IMG/VR virus record: IMGVR_UViG_3300008120_000563
Span: 1 to 20,236 of that record
Reading direction: 5' to 3' (one strand)
Source: a virus
DNA: 20,236 nt
Under the pieces are notes generated by a model. The model had not been told where the DNA came from. It worked only from the letters and a program-made list of their open reading frames with translations, and did no database searches. The stretch's first letter is position 1, and every line of letters starts with the position of its first letter. The position numbers were made by a program, and so were the translations under genes. Below are positions 3,096 to 20,168 of this stretch, piece after piece.

Positions 3096-3629
3096 CTACT
3101 CATTCCTCTCACCAGTTAATAAGGCACGTGTAGCCACATCCCCGTGTGCTAGGTAGTAGTCATTGATGTCCATACCTGGAGGCAATGTTACTATTACTGA
3201 GTTGATTACCTCGTTTGCGACACGCTTAGCGAACTCAGCTCCAGGGTTGGTGCCATCTTCTTTAATGTCATTATCACCGATAACATAAATAGTTTCATAT
3301 CCACTAAATAGTTTTGGATAGTGTGACTTCCACGCCTGTACTCCAGGTACACCCACTGCTGGTATACCAAGTACACCGGAAGCGATAATGGTATCTAGTT
3401 CATTAAAGCCAACGCAGTGACCTAAGGCGGTGATGTATGGAATAGATATCCAACCCTCGTGTAGTTCGTGACCGTTAATAGGATCAGTAACAGTACCGAG
3501 CATATAACGAGCAGCAACTACCTCAGATATCCCACGTTCTCCGAGTGCGGCTAGAGCCTCTGGACTTATTTCCTGTGCGTAGTGTTGCGCCGCTTCCAGC
3601 AGCAATTTCTGTTGCACGTTTGAGGCCAT
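3096..3629 (-). CDS. DNA primase Toprim half, apparently with an internal deletion
   Basis: This is the catalytic Toprim half of a DnaG-type primase, encoded separately from its zinc finger. Residues 22-46 (SPEALAALGERGIS) and 59-74 (GWISIPYITALGHCVG) match the start of the primase core. IIASGVLGIPAVGVPGVQAW (81-100) and the metal-binding D-N-D at 119-121 match Toprim strands. In the family the first Toprim strand reads E-G-x-x-D; here the aligned residues are F-N-E-L-D (75-79), so the catalytic Glu and Gly are replaced. About 40-45 residues usually present before them seem to be missing, joined directly to GHCVGF. The ATG has GGAG seven bases upstream (3637-3640), supporting separate translation. 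The gene is either inactive, divergent, or affected by an assembly error. Confidence 0.75.
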   Translation of the reverse strand: MASNVQQKLLLEAAQHYAQEISPEALAALGERGISEVVAARYMLGTVTDPINGHELHEGWISIPYITALGHCVGFNELDTIIASGVLGIPAVGVPGVQAWKSHYPKLFSGYETIYVIGDNDIKEDGTNPGAEFAKRVANEVINSVIVTLPPGMDINDYYLAHGDVATRALLTGERNE

Positions 3630-3900
3630 CGTTGAACTCCATATTCTCCATAAAGCACACCAAGTTAGCAGCGTTGCCGCCTTTACCGCAGGTGTGACAA
3701 AAGTATAAATTGTTTACTGTATCTATAACAGCTGAGCCGTGCTTATCATCGTGCATTACGCACGATACCTTCACGTTCTTACCTTCTCTTACTTGCCCTC
3801 CGTAGTGAGCAACAACAGATCCTATGGGGATTGAATTCGCATCAACGGAACCTTTGAACCCTTTGTTACGAACCATCCTGGACCAACCTTGTGTTGACAT
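3523..3900 (-). CDS. DNA primase zinc-binding (CHC2) half
   Basis: The N-terminal zinc ribbon of a DnaG-type primase. The ligands fit C-x2-H ... C-x2-C: Cys47 and His50 in VSCVMHDDKHGSA, Cys68 and Cys71 in LYFCHTCGKGG. They are followed by NAANLVCFMENMEFNDGLKRA, as in primase CHC2 domains. The protein ends about 20 residues after the domain in an Arg/Ser-rich tail. The Toprim half starts in another frame inside this gene, with a 107-base overlap. Its role would be to recognise template single-stranded DNA for RNA primer synthesis, in partnership with the Toprim protein and the ATPase at 4918-5805. The start is ATG 3900, with AGGAG seven bases upstream; an internal Met at residue 9 is possible. 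It overlaps the end of the Cys-rich gene by 79 bases. Confidence 0.8.
   Translation of the reverse strand: MSTQGWSRMVRNKGFKGSVDANSIPIGSVVAHYGGQVREGKNVKVSCVMHDDKHGSAVIDTVNNLYFCHTCGKGGNAANLVCFMENMEFNDGLKRATEIAAGSGATLRTGNKSRGSSRTRRTWDI
3637..3640 (-). promoter_or_regulatory. Shine-Dalgarno for the Toprim gene inside the CHC2 gene
   Basis: GGAG on the minus strand with a seven-base spacer before ATG 3629. It argues that the two primase halves are translated as separate, overlapping genes rather than being a sequencing frameshift of one gene. Confidence 0.6.
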
Positions 3901-4193: not shown

Positions 4194-4430
4194 TTAGAGG
4201 CTAAGTACTTCTTCTTGAACTTGGACTTCTTCAACTTCTTTAATGGTTGTATCACTGACGGCATCAGTTTTCCCTTCCCATTCTAAATGAAAGATACCCT
4301 TTTCTTTATGTCTCTTCATTAAAGTATGTAATCCTTTTTCACTTTGTCCTGATATGGCTAAGCCACAAAGACAAAGATATGAAAATCCTGGACTCTCTCT
4401 TGCATACCATTGTTGAGCATACTGATTCAT
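4194..4430 (-). CDS. C2H2-like zinc-finger small protein
   Basis: A 78-residue protein starting MNQYAQQWYARESPGFSYLC. It contains C-L-C, twelve residues, then H-x5-H (LHTLMKRHKEKG), which is the spacing of a C2H2 zinc finger except that only one residue separates the cysteines. The C-terminal third is acidic, with Glu/Val repeats (KEVEEVQVQEEV). It may bind nucleic acid or protein. I chose ATG 4430 because GGAG lies five bases upstream and the ATG overlaps the nuclease stop as ATGA; the longer frame to 4472 would lie within the nuclease gene. It follows the resolvase-like gene, so a recombination or replication role is plausible. Confidence 0.65.
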   Translation of the reverse strand: MNQYAQQWYARESPGFSYLCLCGLAISGQSEKGLHTLMKRHKEKGIFHLEWEGKTDAVSDTTIKEVEEVQVQEEVLSL

Positions 4431-4780
4431 TGTTTCTCCTTTAACCACTGCTTGAGATCCTGTATGACCCAAGCGTTTTCAATACCGGAGTTGCGACGCT
4501 TAACTACAACATAGTGCAGCGGTACTTCCCCAATACCACGTGCCTTAGCATAGTTAAGCGCCTCAACCTCGGCTTCCCTCCAGAACTCAGGCAAGGAAAG
4601 GGTTGCCCTGTTCTTGAGTTCTAGTATGTATGTCTTTCCCGCGACGACACATACTAAGTCTCCTTCATCCTTAGCTCCCGCTTTTGTTAAGCGTTCAGCA
4701 AGGACATCTTTAGTTTGGCGTAGCCATTTGAGAACATCTGTTTCAAACTTGCTACCCTTTCGACCATTCGGATTAGCCAT
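4427..4780 (-). CDS. Holliday-junction-resolvase-like PD-(D/E)XK nuclease
   Basis: A 117-residue nuclease of the Hjc/VRR-Nuc type. From ATG 4780 it starts MANPNGRKGSKFETDVLKWL, with an N-terminal Glu in the first helix, then AGAKDEGDLVCVV and ILELKNR. This gives the catalytic series E ... D ... E-x-K on the usual strand-turn-strand. The size and the leading GRKGSKFE match small phage resolvases, which cut branched DNA to resolve recombination or replication intermediates before packaging. The open frame extends to 4870, but the upstream part is out of register with the family and overlaps another small gene (4773-4931). AAGG lies six bases before ATG 4780. Neighbours are the DnaB-like ATPase and primase. 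Confidence 0.75.
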   Translation of the reverse strand: MANPNGRKGSKFETDVLKWLRQTKDVLAERLTKAGAKDEGDLVCVVAGKTYILELKNRATLSLPEFWREAEVEALNYAKARGIGEVPLHYVVVKRRNSGIENAWVIQDLKQWLKEKQ

Positions 4781-4931
4781 TGGCAACCTTAATAATCTTA
4801 TAGACCTGCTTGCCATTTTCTTCTTTGACTTCAACAATACCTGCTTGAATAAGAATACTAGCGAAGGCACCGAAGTCCTCTTCTAATTTAGCAATACGAT
4901 TCTTTACGTACTGTATTTCAGTATTGGCCAT
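4773..4931 (-). CDS. Small hypothetical protein (52 aa)
   Basis: Starts MANTEIQYVKNRIAKLEEDF and ends KQVYKIIKVANG. The first half is a predicted amphipathic helix and the second is strand-like, with no Cys and no membrane segment. The ATG overlaps the end of the ATPase gene by 14 bases; a GAGG lies about nine bases upstream. The stop overlaps the nuclease start as ATGGCTAA, giving tight operon packing on both sides and good reason to accept it. It may be a small partner of the ATPase or nuclease, but no family is recognised. Confidence 0.65.
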   Translation of the reverse strand: MANTEIQYVKNRIAKLEEDFGAFASILIQAGIVEVKEENGKQVYKIIKVANG

Positions 4932-5805
4932 AGACATCATCCTCATCATCTTTGTACTGTGATACGTAATTGCCTACATAACCAGCACGTGCGTCATTGT
5001 GAAGCATAACTCCGAAAGCATTCTTATCAGATATCTGACACGCTGCGTAGTTAACAAAGAGAGTAGCCCAGTCTGAGCCATCAGCAGTATGTGGACCGAA
5101 TCGGTTCTTGACTGCTGCAATCTTTAGTTCACCACTAGATGGATTGTAACCAAGAGTTAAGATTAACGCTGGTAGTTGACTGACCTTACCGTGAATAGCA
5201 CGACGTGCTGGTGGGTTAATAGTGGATCCGTACTCTGACTGCTCTGATACGTGGTGTAGCACCAGTACACAGGCTTCAGTCTTACGAGCCATATCGTGCA
5301 GCTCCATCATAATTGCACGAAGTCCTGCCCACTCGTTGTCTGTTTCAGCAGCAACGTTCATCAAGTTATCTATCACGATCAGTTCAGGTGCTTCTCCGAA
5401 CAACTCTACATATGCTCGAATCTCAAGTTCGATATCATCCAATGAAGGTGAAGAGTCAAAGACCCACTTAATATGTCTGAGTTTGTCGAAGTGTCTATCG
5501 TAGTAATGTGTATCGGCTGAGAGATTACTCTCTACCGAAACCTGTGAATGACCGGATGCTTGTGCAGCAGCACGCATCATTACAGTTGTGGTATCAGTAT
5601 CGGCTGAGAAGAACAGAGTAGGAACCTTTGCTTGCATTGCATAGACCAAAGCAAACATAGACTTACCAGCATTAGGAGCAGCAGCGACCATACAGACTTG
5701 TCCTCTACGGAACTTAATCTGCTTAGCTGCTAGACCATCCCACACATCGGGTAGCGGTGTTGCTTTGGTAAGCACACCACCCCACGCACGGGATAAGTCA
5801 AGCAA
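4918..5805 (-). CDS. RecA/DnaB-superfamily ATPase, probable replicative helicase or recombinase
   Basis: A 295-residue P-loop ATPase. Walker A is AAPNAGKS (42-49), FFSADTD follows at 65-71, Walker B is ELIVIDNL (141-148), and a sensor strand VLVLHHVSE lies near 180-188. The last two features recall the RecA-like fold of DnaB, KaiC and RepA. It lacks the DnaB N-terminal domain, so it is shorter than cellular DnaB (about 450 aa). Role: DNA unwinding with the split primase, or helicase loading or strand exchange. The start is TTG 5805, with a perfect AAGGAGG five bases upstream inside the WhiB gene end; an eight-base overlap with WhiB implies coupling. The acidic C-terminal tail (YKDDEDDVYGQY) is a possible protein-interaction site. 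Confidence 0.85.
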   Translation of the reverse strand: MLDLSRAWGGVLTKATPLPDVWDGLAAKQIKFRRGQVCMVAAAPNAGKSMFALVYAMQAKVPTLFFSADTDTTTVMMRAAAQASGHSQVSVESNLSADTHYYDRHFDKLRHIKWVFDSSPSLDDIELEIRAYVELFGEAPELIVIDNLMNVAAETDNEWAGLRAIMMELHDMARKTEACVLVLHHVSEQSEYGSTINPPARRAIHGKVSQLPALILTLGYNPSSGELKIAAVKNRFGPHTADGSDWATLFVNYAACQISDKNAFGVMLHNDARAGYVGNYVSQYKDDEDDVYGQY

Positions 5806-6064
5806 CTTCGCCTCCTTGTAAAGTTATTCCTCTTTGCCTACGAATCTTGTAGCGCTCTCTACTTACTAGACCGCCCCATATGCCGTGAGCTTCATTAACG
5901 ATTCCCCACTCAGCACACTCTGATTGGTGTGGACAACTTCTGCAAATTTGTTTTGCATAGTTAACTTCAATAGTTCCAATAGATTCTTTTCCCTTTTCAG
6001 GAAACCAGAAATCTCCACCAATCTCAGCACACGCGGGAGCTTCAAACTGATGCGGCTCCCGCAT
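5798..6064 (-). CDS. whiB: WhiB-like iron-sulfur transcription factor
   Basis: An 88-residue WhiB protein with the four cluster ligands Cys12, Cys41, Cys44 and Cys50 (C-x28-C-x2-C-x5-C), the turn GIWGG at 61-65, and the basic C-terminal RYKIRRQR DNA-binding tail. WhiB proteins bind a 4Fe-4S cluster, contact the principal sigma factor region 4 and change host transcription. Phage versions (for example WhiBTM4) can repress host whiB2 and block septation; here the target is unknown. It is the strongest evidence for an actinobacterial host. It is transcribed with the ATPase, whose ribosome site lies in its last codons. No good Shine-Dalgarno precedes ATG 6064, so it may be translated by coupling from the gene ending three bases upstream. 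Confidence 0.93.
   Translation of the reverse strand: MREPHQFEAPACAEIGGDFWFPEKGKESIGTIEVNYAKQICRSCPHQSECAEWGIVNEAHGIWGGLVSRERYKIRRQRGITLQGGEVA
5811..5817 (-). promoter_or_regulatory. Perfect Shine-Dalgarno fixing the ATPase TTG start
   Basis: AAGGAGG on the minus strand, five bases before TTG 5805, within the last codons of whiB. It identifies a TTG start and translational coupling of WhiB and the ATPase. Confidence 0.75.
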
Positions 6065-6067
6065 TGT

Positions 6068-6439
6068 TTATCTAACCCAGATTGTGTCGCACTTATCTGG
6101 TGCGCCCTTAGGTGATGGACACATCCATCCCTGCCACGTACCCTTTGAAGATGTACCAGTCTTGTACACCATTGCTCCGTGCTTACAAGTATTACCAGCA
6201 GATTGTGCTGGTGCTCCGCTAGGAGTTACTGCTGTGACTGTTGCTCCTAGTTGAGCTGCAATAGCGTTAGCACTTGAACCGCCAAGTTCGCCAGCAGTTG
6301 ATTTAATAAGAGCAGATACCATTGAAAGATCATTGAGTCCTGTCTCCAGTTCCTTTACGTCTGTTGCATACAGATTGATAAGTGTTCCATCATTCAACTT
6401 ATAGTTGACTTGATACTTTGTGTCTGACGGTGCAGCCAT
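6068..6439 (-). CDS. Hypothetical protein with a C-terminal Cys/His zinc-like module
   Basis: A 123-residue protein. Residues 1-45 are strand-rich, the middle is Ala/Gly/Ser-rich and flexible (50-83), and the tail is a compact module: TCKHGAMVYKTGTSSKG, then WQGWMCPSP and DKCDTIWVR. C-x-H-G ... C ... C probably binds zinc. The same kind of tail occurs on several unrelated phage replication proteins, so it looks like an add-on nucleic-acid or protein contact module. The ATG 6439 has GGAGG seven bases upstream. It starts one base from the stop of the Cas4-like nuclease, with which it may work (for example as a single-strand-binding or recombination cofactor, by position only). Confidence 0.65.
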   Translation of the reverse strand: MAAPSDTKYQVNYKLNDGTLINLYATDVKELETGLNDLSMVSALIKSTAGELGGSSANAIAAQLGATVTAVTPSGAPAQSAGNTCKHGAMVYKTGTSSKGTWQGWMCPSPKGAPDKCDTIWVR

Positions 6440-7399
6440 TTACTTTCCTCCACTTTGTTTGATGTTTAGCCGAACAGATTCGTTGCCAATAATTTTGGGA
6501 ACAAACCCTAGAAGTTTTTCAACTTCCTTGGAATCAACTGACTCTCGGCCTTTAACCGTAGTCCAACTGATTTCAATGCCACTGGCTGTTACACCAGTAG
6601 CTCCCTGAAATGATTCTTTCAAGGAATCCTTTTGCTTCTCTAACGCTTTAATCTGTGCATCTATCTGTAGATACTTTAGTCCGTTAGTGTCTATCTCTGC
6701 ATCCTCAATGATTGTTTCACTGAGAACTATACGTTCTTTTTTTAGACCAACGCATCCCATCTCACCTGATGCGTCGTAGTACTGACAGTAGAGTCTGCAG
6801 AAACTTTCATCCTTTTCAGGTTGTGGTGCCTCCGGCATCTCCTTGACATTAGCCAACCACGATAAGGCTTCGAGTGCAACCTTCTCATCATAGGCTTCAG
6901 TGTGTACCTTGACATCCTTCTCATCACCATCACGTGCGATAGCAACAAGGTTAACGGTATTGACTTTACCCTTACCGCTCTTCTCAATCAAGTAGCCATA
7001 GACCTGTACCTGCCAGCGCTGTTGCACTGATGGAAAGAATGATAGGTTCTTTACCTTAGATGTTTTCCAGTCAATGACTGCACCAGATTCTGGTATGTAT
7101 AAATCTACGTGTGCTTTCAAATCACCGTATGCTACTTCTGTTTCAACTAAGTAATCCTTACCTTCAGGATCTAATGTTGTAATTGCTTCTTCAATAGCTG
7201 CGTGGATGGCAGTACCCATAATGGCAGCAAGTTTAGATTGGTTATCATTAGTTTCAGGTTGACCGTTTAATCGGTACCACACCTTACGACGACAACCACC
7301 AATTTCTGATGGACCTACCTGTGTCTGCTTACTGCGGTCACGTCCTGCATCTTTGGCGTGCAGTACTGTGAGCAGTAGTTCCTTTGGATCACTTATCAT
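6440..7399 (-). CDS. Cas4/RecB-like PD-(D/E)XK exonuclease with four cysteines
   Basis: A 319-residue nuclease. Cys36 (IGGCRRKVWY) is followed by MGTAIHAAIEEA (His66), a Glu near 86, Asp99, then VIDWKTSK with Asp110 and Lys112 (D-x-K), and WQVQVYGYLI (Gln130, Tyr134). These are the RecB-family motifs in order. Cys201, Cys205 and Cys216 form a second cluster, so with Cys36 there is a C ... C-x3-C-x10-C arrangement like the 4Fe-4S site of Cas4/AddB nucleases. Expected role: 5'-to-3' or 3'-to-5' single-strand exonuclease for recombination or host DNA breakdown. The C-terminal 80 residues add a helical KALEKQKDSLKE coiled segment not found in Cas4. GAGAGG lies five bases upstream of ATG 7399. Confidence 0.8.
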   Translation of the reverse strand: MISDPKELLLTVLHAKDAGRDRSKQTQVGPSEIGGCRRKVWYRLNGQPETNDNQSKLAAIMGTAIHAAIEEAITTLDPEGKDYLVETEVAYGDLKAHVDLYIPESGAVIDWKTSKVKNLSFFPSVQQRWQVQVYGYLIEKSGKGKVNTVNLVAIARDGDEKDVKVHTEAYDEKVALEALSWLANVKEMPEAPQPEKDESFCRLYCQYYDASGEMGCVGLKKERIVLSETIIEDAEIDTNGLKYLQIDAQIKALEKQKDSLKESFQGATGVTASGIEISWTTVKGRESVDSKEVEKLLGFVPKIIGNESVRLNIKQSGGK

Positions 7400-7619
7400 C
7401 TGTGCCTCTCGCTATAGTAATTGCAAAGAACATTCCATTACAGACACCTTTATAGAATTCATCTGTTTGAGCTTCATCTACAAACTTGTTTCTGTACTCT
7501 TCAATTTGCTGAGCAATTCTTTCACGTAATGCCATTTCATCAAAACTGTTACCAATGCGACCAGCACGATAACCCTTTTCAAGTGCTTCACTTAGTGCAT
7601 ACTCCAATGTCTTGTTCAT
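7389..7619 (-). CDS. Hypothetical helical protein (76 aa)
   Basis: Starts MNKTLEYALSEALEKGYRAG and is predicted to be mostly helical, with a Glu/Arg-rich middle (ALRERIAQQIEEYRNK) and a hydrophobic stretch near the end (GMFFAITIARG). It starts at ATG 7619 overlapping the protease stop as ATGA, with AGAGG upstream, and its end overlaps the nuclease by 11 bases. It is clearly an operon gene. No family is recognised; its place between the protease and the nuclease gives no specific role. Confidence 0.7.
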   Translation of the reverse strand: MNKTLEYALSEALEKGYRAGRIGNSFDEMALRERIAQQIEEYRNKFVDEAQTDEFYKGVCNGMFFAITIARGTDDK

Positions 7620-8182
7620 TCAAATATCCTCTCCTGAACCACCAACTGTAAGGGCGGGTTAGTATTGACGTCAAGCACCGACGCGATCTTTACTGCTTTC
7701 TTTACAACTTGAATAGCAGCAGCCTGTGTACGTGTCGAGTTGTTAGATAGTGAGTACAGATAACCCATAGCAAACTGACCGCCTGAACCTAAGCCGTAGC
7801 GTCCTGTGTCATTAGATATAAAGCTCATATCGCAAGCGATGTGGAACAGTTCACCGTCAAAGGCGATGATGTAATCAAAGCCACCTTCTTTATCTTGCTT
7901 AGCCCAATCGTAACCGTGTGCTTCAAACGTACGAATGATAGATGGGATTAGTTTCTTTCCCATAAATATAATCTTGTCATCACCGGTATACGGAGGTGGT
8001 GTCCAGTTGTACGCAAGGATATCTCCTGGACGTGCATCGCCTGTGATACCGATAAGGTAATCACCAACTGCAACGATCTTCGGCGTGCGTGTAGATATTG
8101 TTCGTAAGTTATCTTCTGTTATTTGTGAGTCAGCGCAGAGTACACACCAACCATCTCCCTGAATACCGGCGATTGTTGTCAT
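7616..8182 (-). CDS. Proteasome-beta/HslV-like Ntn hydrolase (peptidase T1 family)
   Basis: Starts MTTIAGIQGDGWCVLCADSQ, which matches proteasome beta subunits and HslV: the Thr after the initiator Met would be the catalytic nucleophile. Asp17 (counting from that Thr) in CADSQ, Lys34 in RTPKIVAVGD, the GITGD turn, a GLGSGG motif (132-135) and SVLDVNTNPP near the end correspond to the family's Asp17, Lys33, Ser129-Gly and Asp166 regions. The length of 188 aa is like HslV (about 175). No HslU, ClpX or Mpa-like ATPase is present in the window, so it would use a host unfoldase or act alone. First gene of the early operon, so the likely action is on host or early proteins rather than capsid maturation. 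Could instead be a non-proteolytic Ntn amidase. No Shine-Dalgarno; see the promoter entry at 8189-8194. Confidence 0.75.
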   Translation of the reverse strand: MTTIAGIQGDGWCVLCADSQITEDNLRTISTRTPKIVAVGDYLIGITGDARPGDILAYNWTPPPYTGDDKIIFMGKKLIPSIIRTFEAHGYDWAKQDKEGGFDYIIAFDGELFHIACDMSFISNDTGRYGLGSGGQFAMGYLYSLSNNSTRTQAAAIQVVKKAVKIASVLDVNTNPPLQLVVQERIFE

Positions 8183-8188
8183 AATCTA

Positions 8189-8194
8189 AGCATA
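8189..8194 (-). promoter_or_regulatory. Possible leaderless -10 box before the protease
   Basis: TATGCT on the minus strand, six bases before ATG 8182, the TANNNT-to-start spacing seen for leaderless actinobacterial transcripts. The gene has no Shine-Dalgarno, which fits. No good -35 element is found at the usual distance, so this competes with the better canonical promoter at 8223-8251. Confidence 0.35.
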
Positions 8195-8222
8195 CCACGA
8201 CACGCCGTGAATGCTTCATTTC

Positions 8223-8251
8223 ATCATACCGGCTTGAGTATGTCGTTACAA
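8223..8251 (-). promoter_or_regulatory. Sigma-70-type promoter for the early minus-strand operon
   Basis: TTGTAA (8246-8251) and TATGAT (8223-8228) on the minus strand are separated by exactly 17 bases, giving 4/6 and 5/6 matches to the -35 and -10 consensus. Transcription would start near 8215 and give a leader of about 33 bases before the protease. No other promoter of this quality is visible in front of the 7-kb operon. The assignment is by consensus only. Confidence 0.5.
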
Positions 8252-8252
8252 T
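8247..8252 (+). promoter_or_regulatory. Possible leaderless -10 box for the plus-strand pair
   Basis: TACAAT on the plus strand, seven bases before GTG 8260. It overlaps the -35 of the opposite promoter, so the two transcripts would compete for RNA polymerase. There is no recognisable -35 or Shine-Dalgarno, so a leaderless start is suggested but not shown. Confidence 0.3.
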
Positions 8253-8259
8253 ATGAGCC

Positions 8260-8583
8260 GTGAGGCGAATTAAACAGGCAGAGCGGCCCTCGATGGGCCG
8301 CGACAGTAGCAGTACTGTTACTGTGCGGTTCCGTCTACCAACCCTGCGGATTTTCAGACGCAAGGATACACCCTACGATGGCCTTCCTGAGCCATTTGGA
8401 GCCGATTTGCGGGCTTTAGGCCCGCTCCACGTCTGTCCGTGTGGCTCTCAGGTCTTTAACGTTATGGCGTCCTTTGAGGACTTTGAACTCAGCTGGTATT
8501 TCTTGGACGCAACCTGCGTCAACTGCGGAAATCTAGTGGTTGTCCCCTGTCCTGTGGATAAAGATGGACCACAAGCTCAGTAG
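8260..8583 (+). CDS. Hypothetical protein with five cysteines, putative zinc ribbon
   Basis: A 107-residue frame from GTG 8260. The conserved-looking part is PYDGLPEPFGADLRALGP followed by HVCPCGSQVF, WYFLDATCVNCGN and VVVPCPVD. Cys59, Cys61, Cys86, Cys89 and Cys97 form a ribbon-like site. Proteins of this type occur in actinophages without a known function. The start is uncertain: GTG 8260 is leaderless-looking, while ATG 8293 lies inside a strong hairpin (8283-8301) and has no Shine-Dalgarno. The N-terminal 35 residues are basic. The gene stops within the start of the HNH gene, so they form a pair transcribed divergently from the early operon. Confidence 0.65.
   Translation: MRRIKQAERPSMGRDSSSTVTVRFRLPTLRIFRRKDTPYDGLPEPFGADLRALGPLHVCPCGSQVFNVMASFEDFELSWYFLDATCVNCGNLVVVPCPVDKDGPQAQ
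8283..8323. repeat. Two adjacent inverted repeats near the 5' end of the plus-strand pair
   Basis: First, GCGGCCC (8283-8289) pairs with GGGCCGC (8295-8301) around a five-base loop. Second, a 20-base near-palindrome at 8304-8323 (CAGTAGCAGT then ACTGTTACTG) has a single non-Watson-Crick pair, which would be G-U in RNA. They lie 30-70 bases past the promoter region. They may be a regulator-binding site or RNA hairpins controlling the plus-strand gene. They also fall inside an open frame, so coding constraint is a possible alternative. Confidence 0.45.
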
Positions 8584-8990: not shown

Positions 8991-9032
8991 AAAAAATAAA
9001 CCCCCACTCAGGATTTCTCCTGAGCAGGGGTT
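8991..9032 (-). terminator. Strong terminator of the structural/lysis operon
   Basis: AACCCC (8999-9004) and CTCAGGA (9007-9013) pair with TCCTGAG (9018-9024) and GGGGTT (9027-9032) around a TTTC loop. Read on the minus strand, the hairpin is followed by TTTATTTTTT (8991-9000 on the plus strand). That is a classic intrinsic terminator placed 26 bases past the holin-like gene. A few T residues also follow on the plus strand, so some action on the convergent HNH transcript is possible. Confidence 0.85.
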
Positions 9033-9057
9033 CATTGTTGCCTCGCGCTAGTATGGG

Positions 9058-17847: not shown

Positions 17848-20168
<2,321 letters not shown>

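Follow-up and report, generated by a model that had tools for sequence, protein, structure and literature searches.

The Protease Gene and Its Locus

The window, that is, the whole stretch of 20,236 nt analysed here, contains a short gene on the minus strand that encodes a proteasome-like hydrolase, followed by a series of genes typical of DNA replication, and faced by a small divergent gene. The features of this region, given in the order in which they lie along the minus strand, are:

8995..9036, minus strand: strong intrinsic terminator (19 pairs plus a T-run), which closes the late/lysis operon upstream
8260..8583, plus strand: small cysteine-rich ORF of 107 aa with a GTG start, divergent
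8199..8206, minus strand: GGCGTGTC element, adjoining the -10 on its upstream side, single copy in the window
8189..8194, minus strand: predicted -10 hexamer TATGCT, 6 nt before the ATG, with an upstream TG at 8196-8197
7616..8182, minus strand: proteasome-like N-terminal-threonine (Ntn) hydrolase; ATG, 188 codons, stop
7389..7619, minus strand: 76-aa ORF with a start codon that overlaps the stop of the protease gene, shared by only 25 of 81 relatives
6440..7399, minus strand: Cas4/RecB-type PD-(D/E)XK exonuclease, the second conserved operon gene
6068..6439, minus strand: homologue of mycobacteriophage L5/D29 gp49
5798..6064, minus strand: WhiB-like transcription factor (actinobacterial marker)
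4918..5805, minus strand: DnaB-like replicative helicase
4427..4870, minus strand: RusA-like Holliday-junction resolvase

A sequence-only reading of this DNA had placed an open reading frame with Thr1, Asp17, Lys34, and a GSGG turn at 7616-8182, all of which are found there, and the strand, which it left unstated, is the minus. The nucleophilic Thr is codon 2, which becomes Thr1 once the Met is removed, and the next residue is Thr2. In the numbering from this Thr, the catalytic series continues with Asp17, Lys34 (the equivalent of proteasome Lys33, shifted by one residue), and Gly47, with the GSGG turn at 131-134. The reading frame is closed by a stop 1–4 codons 5' of the ATG in the window and in many of its relatives, so the Thr would directly follow the initiator, with no propeptide. 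The stops at both ends of the frame also rule out a fragment of a larger protein.

Five homologues (L027, L053, L060, L061, and L063) have an apparent ATT start, an Ile codon, after a good Shine-Dalgarno sequence, and in four of the five there is no in-frame ATG, GTG, or TTG upstream. The use of ATT as a rare start codon may limit expression in these five cases.

Conservation of the Protein Family

The protein matches the Pfam Proteasome family (PF00227) with an E-value of 3.3e-7 and 30.6 bits, against a gathering cut-off of 22.4, and is matched over its whole length by PHROG 1040, the “peptidase HslV family” (E = 3.6e-23). Relatives are encoded in 417 IMG/VR stretches, of which 80 were fetched, and the comparison was based on a set of 181 sequences, composed of the relatives of the window clade together with those of the E7/ct2KA10, DSL-LC01, Pitbull, and Streptomyces-type proteins. 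Thr1, Asp17, and Lys34 are invariant in all 181 phage relatives, and Gly47 is found in 177 of them. The Streptomyces-type homologues (TSSFRMGQLL; viral contigs L188-L191) keep Thr1, Asp17, and Lys33, and have Ser, Thr, Asp, or His in place of the oxyanion Gly47. The nucleophile is thus present in every homologue compared, as the earlier reading requires.

Within the window clade, the segment R50-P-G-D53 is invariant in 82 of 82 sequences, as part of a longer clade-specific invariant segment, R50-P-G-D53...YNW-x-PP, where the first helix begins and near the S1 region, which argues for a role of these residues in the specificity of the protease. The ratio dN/dS is 0.06–0.11 against the nearest relatives and reaches 0.26 further out, which shows that the gene is under purifying selection and, together with the conservation of the sequence, rules out a spurious ORF.

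A scan of genome contigs for bacterial relatives of the close protease family found none, and a profile search of 396 actinobacterial genomes returned only weak matches and a single distant homologue, in the Streptomyces genome that was used as a centre. When the Tunturi_5 and Bacillus plasmid proteins served as queries, no viral relatives were found.

Predicted Fold and Known Proteasome Relatives

An AlphaFold2 model derived from 20 close relatives reached a pLDDT of only 51 and was discarded, whereas a model from a 57-sequence alignment that spans the diversity of the family has a pLDDT of 93.3 and a pTM of 0.88. The best Foldseek match of this model is the betaproteobacteria proteasome homologue (BPH) of Thiobacillus denitrificans (5ovs; E = 4e-12, TM 0.74–0.78), followed by HslV and the 20S beta subunits. 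Alignment of the model with the epoxomicin-bound BPH (5ovt) in VIA-align covers 173 residues with a Z of 20.3, an rmsd of 2.6, and 24% identity, and its aligned range begins with residue 2 of the model and residue 1 of BPH, which is the register of the active site. A profile search of PDB sequences recovers HslV (2.5e-14) and BPH (2.5e-13), and phmmer also matches BPH and HslV chains. The sequence matches and the predicted structure together confirm the assignment of the protein as a proteasome-fold Ntn hydrolase, with the four-layer fold of the PF00227 superfamily, and the beta-subunit/HslV type of fold and active site suggested from the letters alone is borne out in this respect.

The closest known protein in structure is BPH, which resembles the phage protease in its Thr1-Asp17-Lys series, in the absence of a propeptide, and in the lack of an unfoldase partner. 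It is known to lose its Met, to assemble into tetradecamers, and to have no propeptide and no detectable unfoldase partner, with the HslU-interface residues lost (PMC5777263). However, BPH is a cellular protein with a long acidic pore loop, which by eye is shorter in the phage protease, and it lacks the Arg50-Pro-Gly-Asp53 segment.

The phage protein also resembles HslV (ClpQ), which has a TTI start, Asp17, Lys33, and GSGG, but HslV pairs with HslU, and the phage encodes no HslU, although a host HslU is possible. The idea of a canonical proteasome subunit or HslV does not hold: the HslV models score about 30 bits against cut-offs of 137 and 158 (NCBIfam TIGR03692, 30.2 against 157.75; NF003964, 30.6 against 137). 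Bacterial 20S beta subunits usually have a propeptide that is processed before Thr1, and the phage protein was rejected as a member of this class by the absence of both a propeptide and an alpha partner, each record holding a single copy and no further homologue.

Fuchs et al. reported proteasome-like proteins in phages in 2021 (PMC8665760). In that study, the compact proteasome homologues of group I have strands S1–S11 and helices H1–H4, with no S12/H5, insertions, or propeptide, and the model of the phage protease (S1–S11 and H1–H4, without S12/H5) fits this description. The proteasome homologue of phages and their hosts (PPH), by contrast, has some 140 residues and no helix H2 (PMC8665760), whereas the phage protein has 188 residues and a model in which the helices at 50–59 and 70–88 are both present, so that PPH was also rejected. 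Given that phage proteasome-like proteins were already known in 2021, and that the protein is neither HslV nor PPH, the locus represents a new and abundant actinophage clade of a known type of protein.

The fold itself does not dictate the reaction. The Ntn fold supports many reactions, and connectase, a monomeric ligase, belongs to the same proteasome-like superfamily (PMC8665760). The phage protein might then be an amidase, an acylase, or a connectase-like protein ligase with one substrate, a reading to which the invariant clade-specific residues of the pocket region, suggestive of one specific substrate, and the inertness of BPH on standard peptide and casein substrates (PMC5777263) would both lend weight. 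All the proteolytic catalytic residues are retained, however, the best sequence and structure matches are proteases, and the two-helix insertion that connectase carries between S3 and S4 is absent from the model, which has a tight S3–S4 hairpin. We therefore regard a reaction other than proteolysis as quite improbable.

Promoter and Upstream Elements

The earlier reading had placed the gene behind the best promoter in the window. Comparison backs the promoter itself: a TANNNT hexamer ends 6–7 nt 5' of the start in 24 of 30 distinct upstream regions, and 16 of the 30 have the extended -10 TGNTANNNT. The superlative finds no such backing in the consensus scan, in which the sigma-70 sites of the window (31) are in no excess over the 39.8 expected in shuffles. 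A Shine-Dalgarno-like tetramer is found in just five of the 30 upstream regions, which, together with the position of the TANNNT hexamer 6–7 nt before the start, implies that the mRNA of the protease would be leaderless, with its 5' end at about 8182. On the opposite strand, TACAAT lies 7 nt before the GTG of the ORF at 8260..8583, and this gene is apparently leaderless too. The two divergent leaderless promoters, TATGCT and TACAAT, appear to share the gap of about 80 bp at 8183-8267.

In many relatives, the GGCGTGTC element forms an inverted repeat, GTGTCGC..GCGACACGCC, and in most relatives the element or the repeat adjoins the -10 on its upstream side. In one related record (G002), it is present at two sites only, upstream of the protease and some 0.75 kb upstream of the terminase gene (position 5019, L192). 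The element is a possible operator of a phage regulator, or a possible activator site.

Two Alternative Positions of a Single-Copy Gene

The neighbourhood of the gene was compared in 81 window-clade loci, some of which are too short to show all the neighbours. The Cas4-like exonuclease is downstream of the protease in 78 of these loci, and the WhiB and DnaB-like helicase genes then follow in 73. The divergent small gene faces the protease in 78 loci, with the lysin upstream in 61. The terminator at 8995..9036, which closes the lysis operon, sits beyond the divergent and HNH genes and separates the protease from late transcription. With these conserved neighbours and this terminator, the protease is the first gene of the replication operon in almost all window-clade relatives. 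The view of the gene as the first of an early-type operon is thus upheld by conserved synteny.

The nearest cultured relatives of the window phage, the Planktophila phages LanE43AprE7 (OX376640, listed as ct2KA10) and F5 (OX376641), have a related genome plan, a tail protein with 53% identity to that of the window phage, and a homologue of the protease with 32% identity and the same active site. In these phages, however, the homologue lies directly behind the portal, in the head-gene block, whereas the window gene heads the replication operon. This second position is also fixed: in 79 of the 80 loci of the E7-type clade, the homologue comes directly after the portal match, at a median distance of 21 nt, and the head-gene block that follows includes scaffold-like and major head proteins. 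The window-clade and E7-clade records share a common genome plan, including the terminase, portal, head, and tail genes, and the protease is single-copy in all of 30 records, either in the early operon or adjacent to the portal. An ORF of 72–73 aa occupies the slot next to the portal in the three window-clade records that were read from end to end. In the tree, the window clade (100/99) and the E7 clade (99/97) are each one strongly supported group, and their sister relation is weakly supported (83/52).

The slot between the portal and major head genes is the classical place of a prohead protease, and the E7-type arrangement resembles it. A single gene that sits either there or in the early operon is consistent with a protein that is, or descends from, a prohead protease trimming the scaffold, the portal, or other head proteins, and that moved to the early operon in the window clade. 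Several features speak against this reading. In the window clade the slot does not hold the protease, which lies about 24 kb from the portal, behind the terminator of the late operon and a gene in the opposite orientation. The genome plan is also that of Streptomyces phage Manuel, which has no annotated homologue beside the portal, and tblastn of Streptomyces phage records found no homologue in any of them. A separate acidic scaffold-like protein exists, and the head protein has no obvious delta-like N-terminal domain. Other members of the fold family also lie outside the portal-head block, both in Arthrobacter phage Pitbull (gp77, “protease”; 28% identity), with HNH and HTH neighbours, and in Actinomycetia phage DSL-LC01 (“HslV”; 35% identity), in the type of which the homologue is near WhiB and the terminase gene is further downstream. 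We thus find a prohead protease fairly unlikely, but a purely early role leaves the position of the E7-clade gene in the head block unexplained.

What is new here is a large actinophage clade and one single-copy gene fixed at two alternative sites. The encoding of such a protein by an actinophage had been called unusual, which is overstated, given the 2021 description (PMC8665760) and the homologues in isolated actinophages (Pitbull and the Planktophila phages E7/F5) and in Actinomycetia phage DSL-LC01. Fuchs, Alva, and Lupas found no actinobacterium-specific phage carrying AAH, which like PPH is a phage-associated proteasome homologue with the compact group I fold, in 2021 (PMC8665760), and the clade, a candidate member of AAH, bears on this gap.

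Host and Possible Unfoldase Partner

The tail protein of the window phage matches only those of Streptomyces, Microbacterium, and E7/F5 phages, and “Ca. Planktophila” was the isolation host of both E7 and F5 (PMC10202952). Together with the WhiB gene, these matches indicate that the phage infects an actinobacterium, in agreement with the earlier reading, and the host is probably a member of the “Ca. Nanopelagicales”. A literature search found nothing on a proteasome in this order.

The absence of a partner ATPase near the gene, noted from the sequence, extends to the whole window and to the related records searched. The ClpX/HslU-type AAA domain (PF07724) was found in none of 30 related phage records, some of which are fragments, and in all 14 control genomes. 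A search of eleven window-clade records gave no match to the PF00004 domain; in the E7-type phages its matches are to the DnaB-like helicase gene, where checked (G017 and G021), and in the DSL-type phages (DSL-LC01 and L095) to AAA proteins without a Clp/HslU-type AAA_2 domain.

Proteins of the proteasome/HslV fold class normally work with AAA+ unfoldases and, since the phage brings none, the host would have to be the source. The protease might then be an HslV-like degrader that docks on and redirects an unfoldase of the host, namely ClpX, ClpC1, or, in a host with a proteasome, Mpa/ARC, and so degrades folded host proteins. The use of a host unfoldase had been suggested in the earlier reading. 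The nearest fold, however, is that of BPH, with no unfoldase partner detected and its HslU interface lost, and we consider the recruitment of a host unfoldase unlikely.

Proposed Mode of Action

The best explanation of these findings, to which we give about an even chance, is a BPH-like, self-assembling Thr protease that is made early and acts on a narrow set of substrates. The host methionine aminopeptidase would remove the Met and expose Thr1 as the nucleophile. Lys34 and Asp17 would activate it, and Gly47 would lie at the oxyanion hole. By analogy with BPH, the most likely assembly is a stacked double ring of identical subunits that encloses the active sites. With no unfoldase encoded, the ring probably accepts unstructured or specially delivered substrates, and a narrow specificity may be set by the R50-P-G-D53...YNW-x-PP segment. 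The protease would be the first product of the replication operon, translated from a leaderless mRNA, and its early expression is suggested by this first place and by the content of the operon. Its most likely targets would be a small number of proteins, perhaps a single one, either of the host or made early by the phage, and their cleavage would favour the takeover of the host or DNA replication. Given that BPH is inert in the standard assays, the activity of a BPH-like protein is not to be presumed.

A bolder version of this proposal, which we hold to be unlikely, is a dedicated unfoldase-independent protease of the proteasome type, acting as the first early protein of freshwater actinophages on a narrow target, for example a regulator or a defence protein of the host. 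In sister clades, this same single gene would have been put to different uses, early takeover in one and head assembly in the other.

Almost nothing is established on the functions of viral proteasome-like proteins, and a literature search found no experimental work on any proteasome-like protein of a phage. The clade described here is abundant, with its 417 stretches in one viral collection, conserved, and tied to the replication operon. The two alternative positions of the gene make the choice between early takeover and head maturation a direct and answerable question, and the function can be tested, given that the cultured relatives infect one of the most abundant orders of freshwater bacteria.

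Other Genes of the Window

Two further genes of the minus strand deserve mention. A primase-like gene lies in two overlapping frames, at 3096-3629 and 3523-3900, which may represent a conserved split gene or a programmed frameshift, and Streptomyces phage Manuel likewise has two genes, gp41 and gp42, both annotated as “DNA primase”. In the structural region, a collagen-like protein with G-x-y repeats is encoded at 18902-19834.
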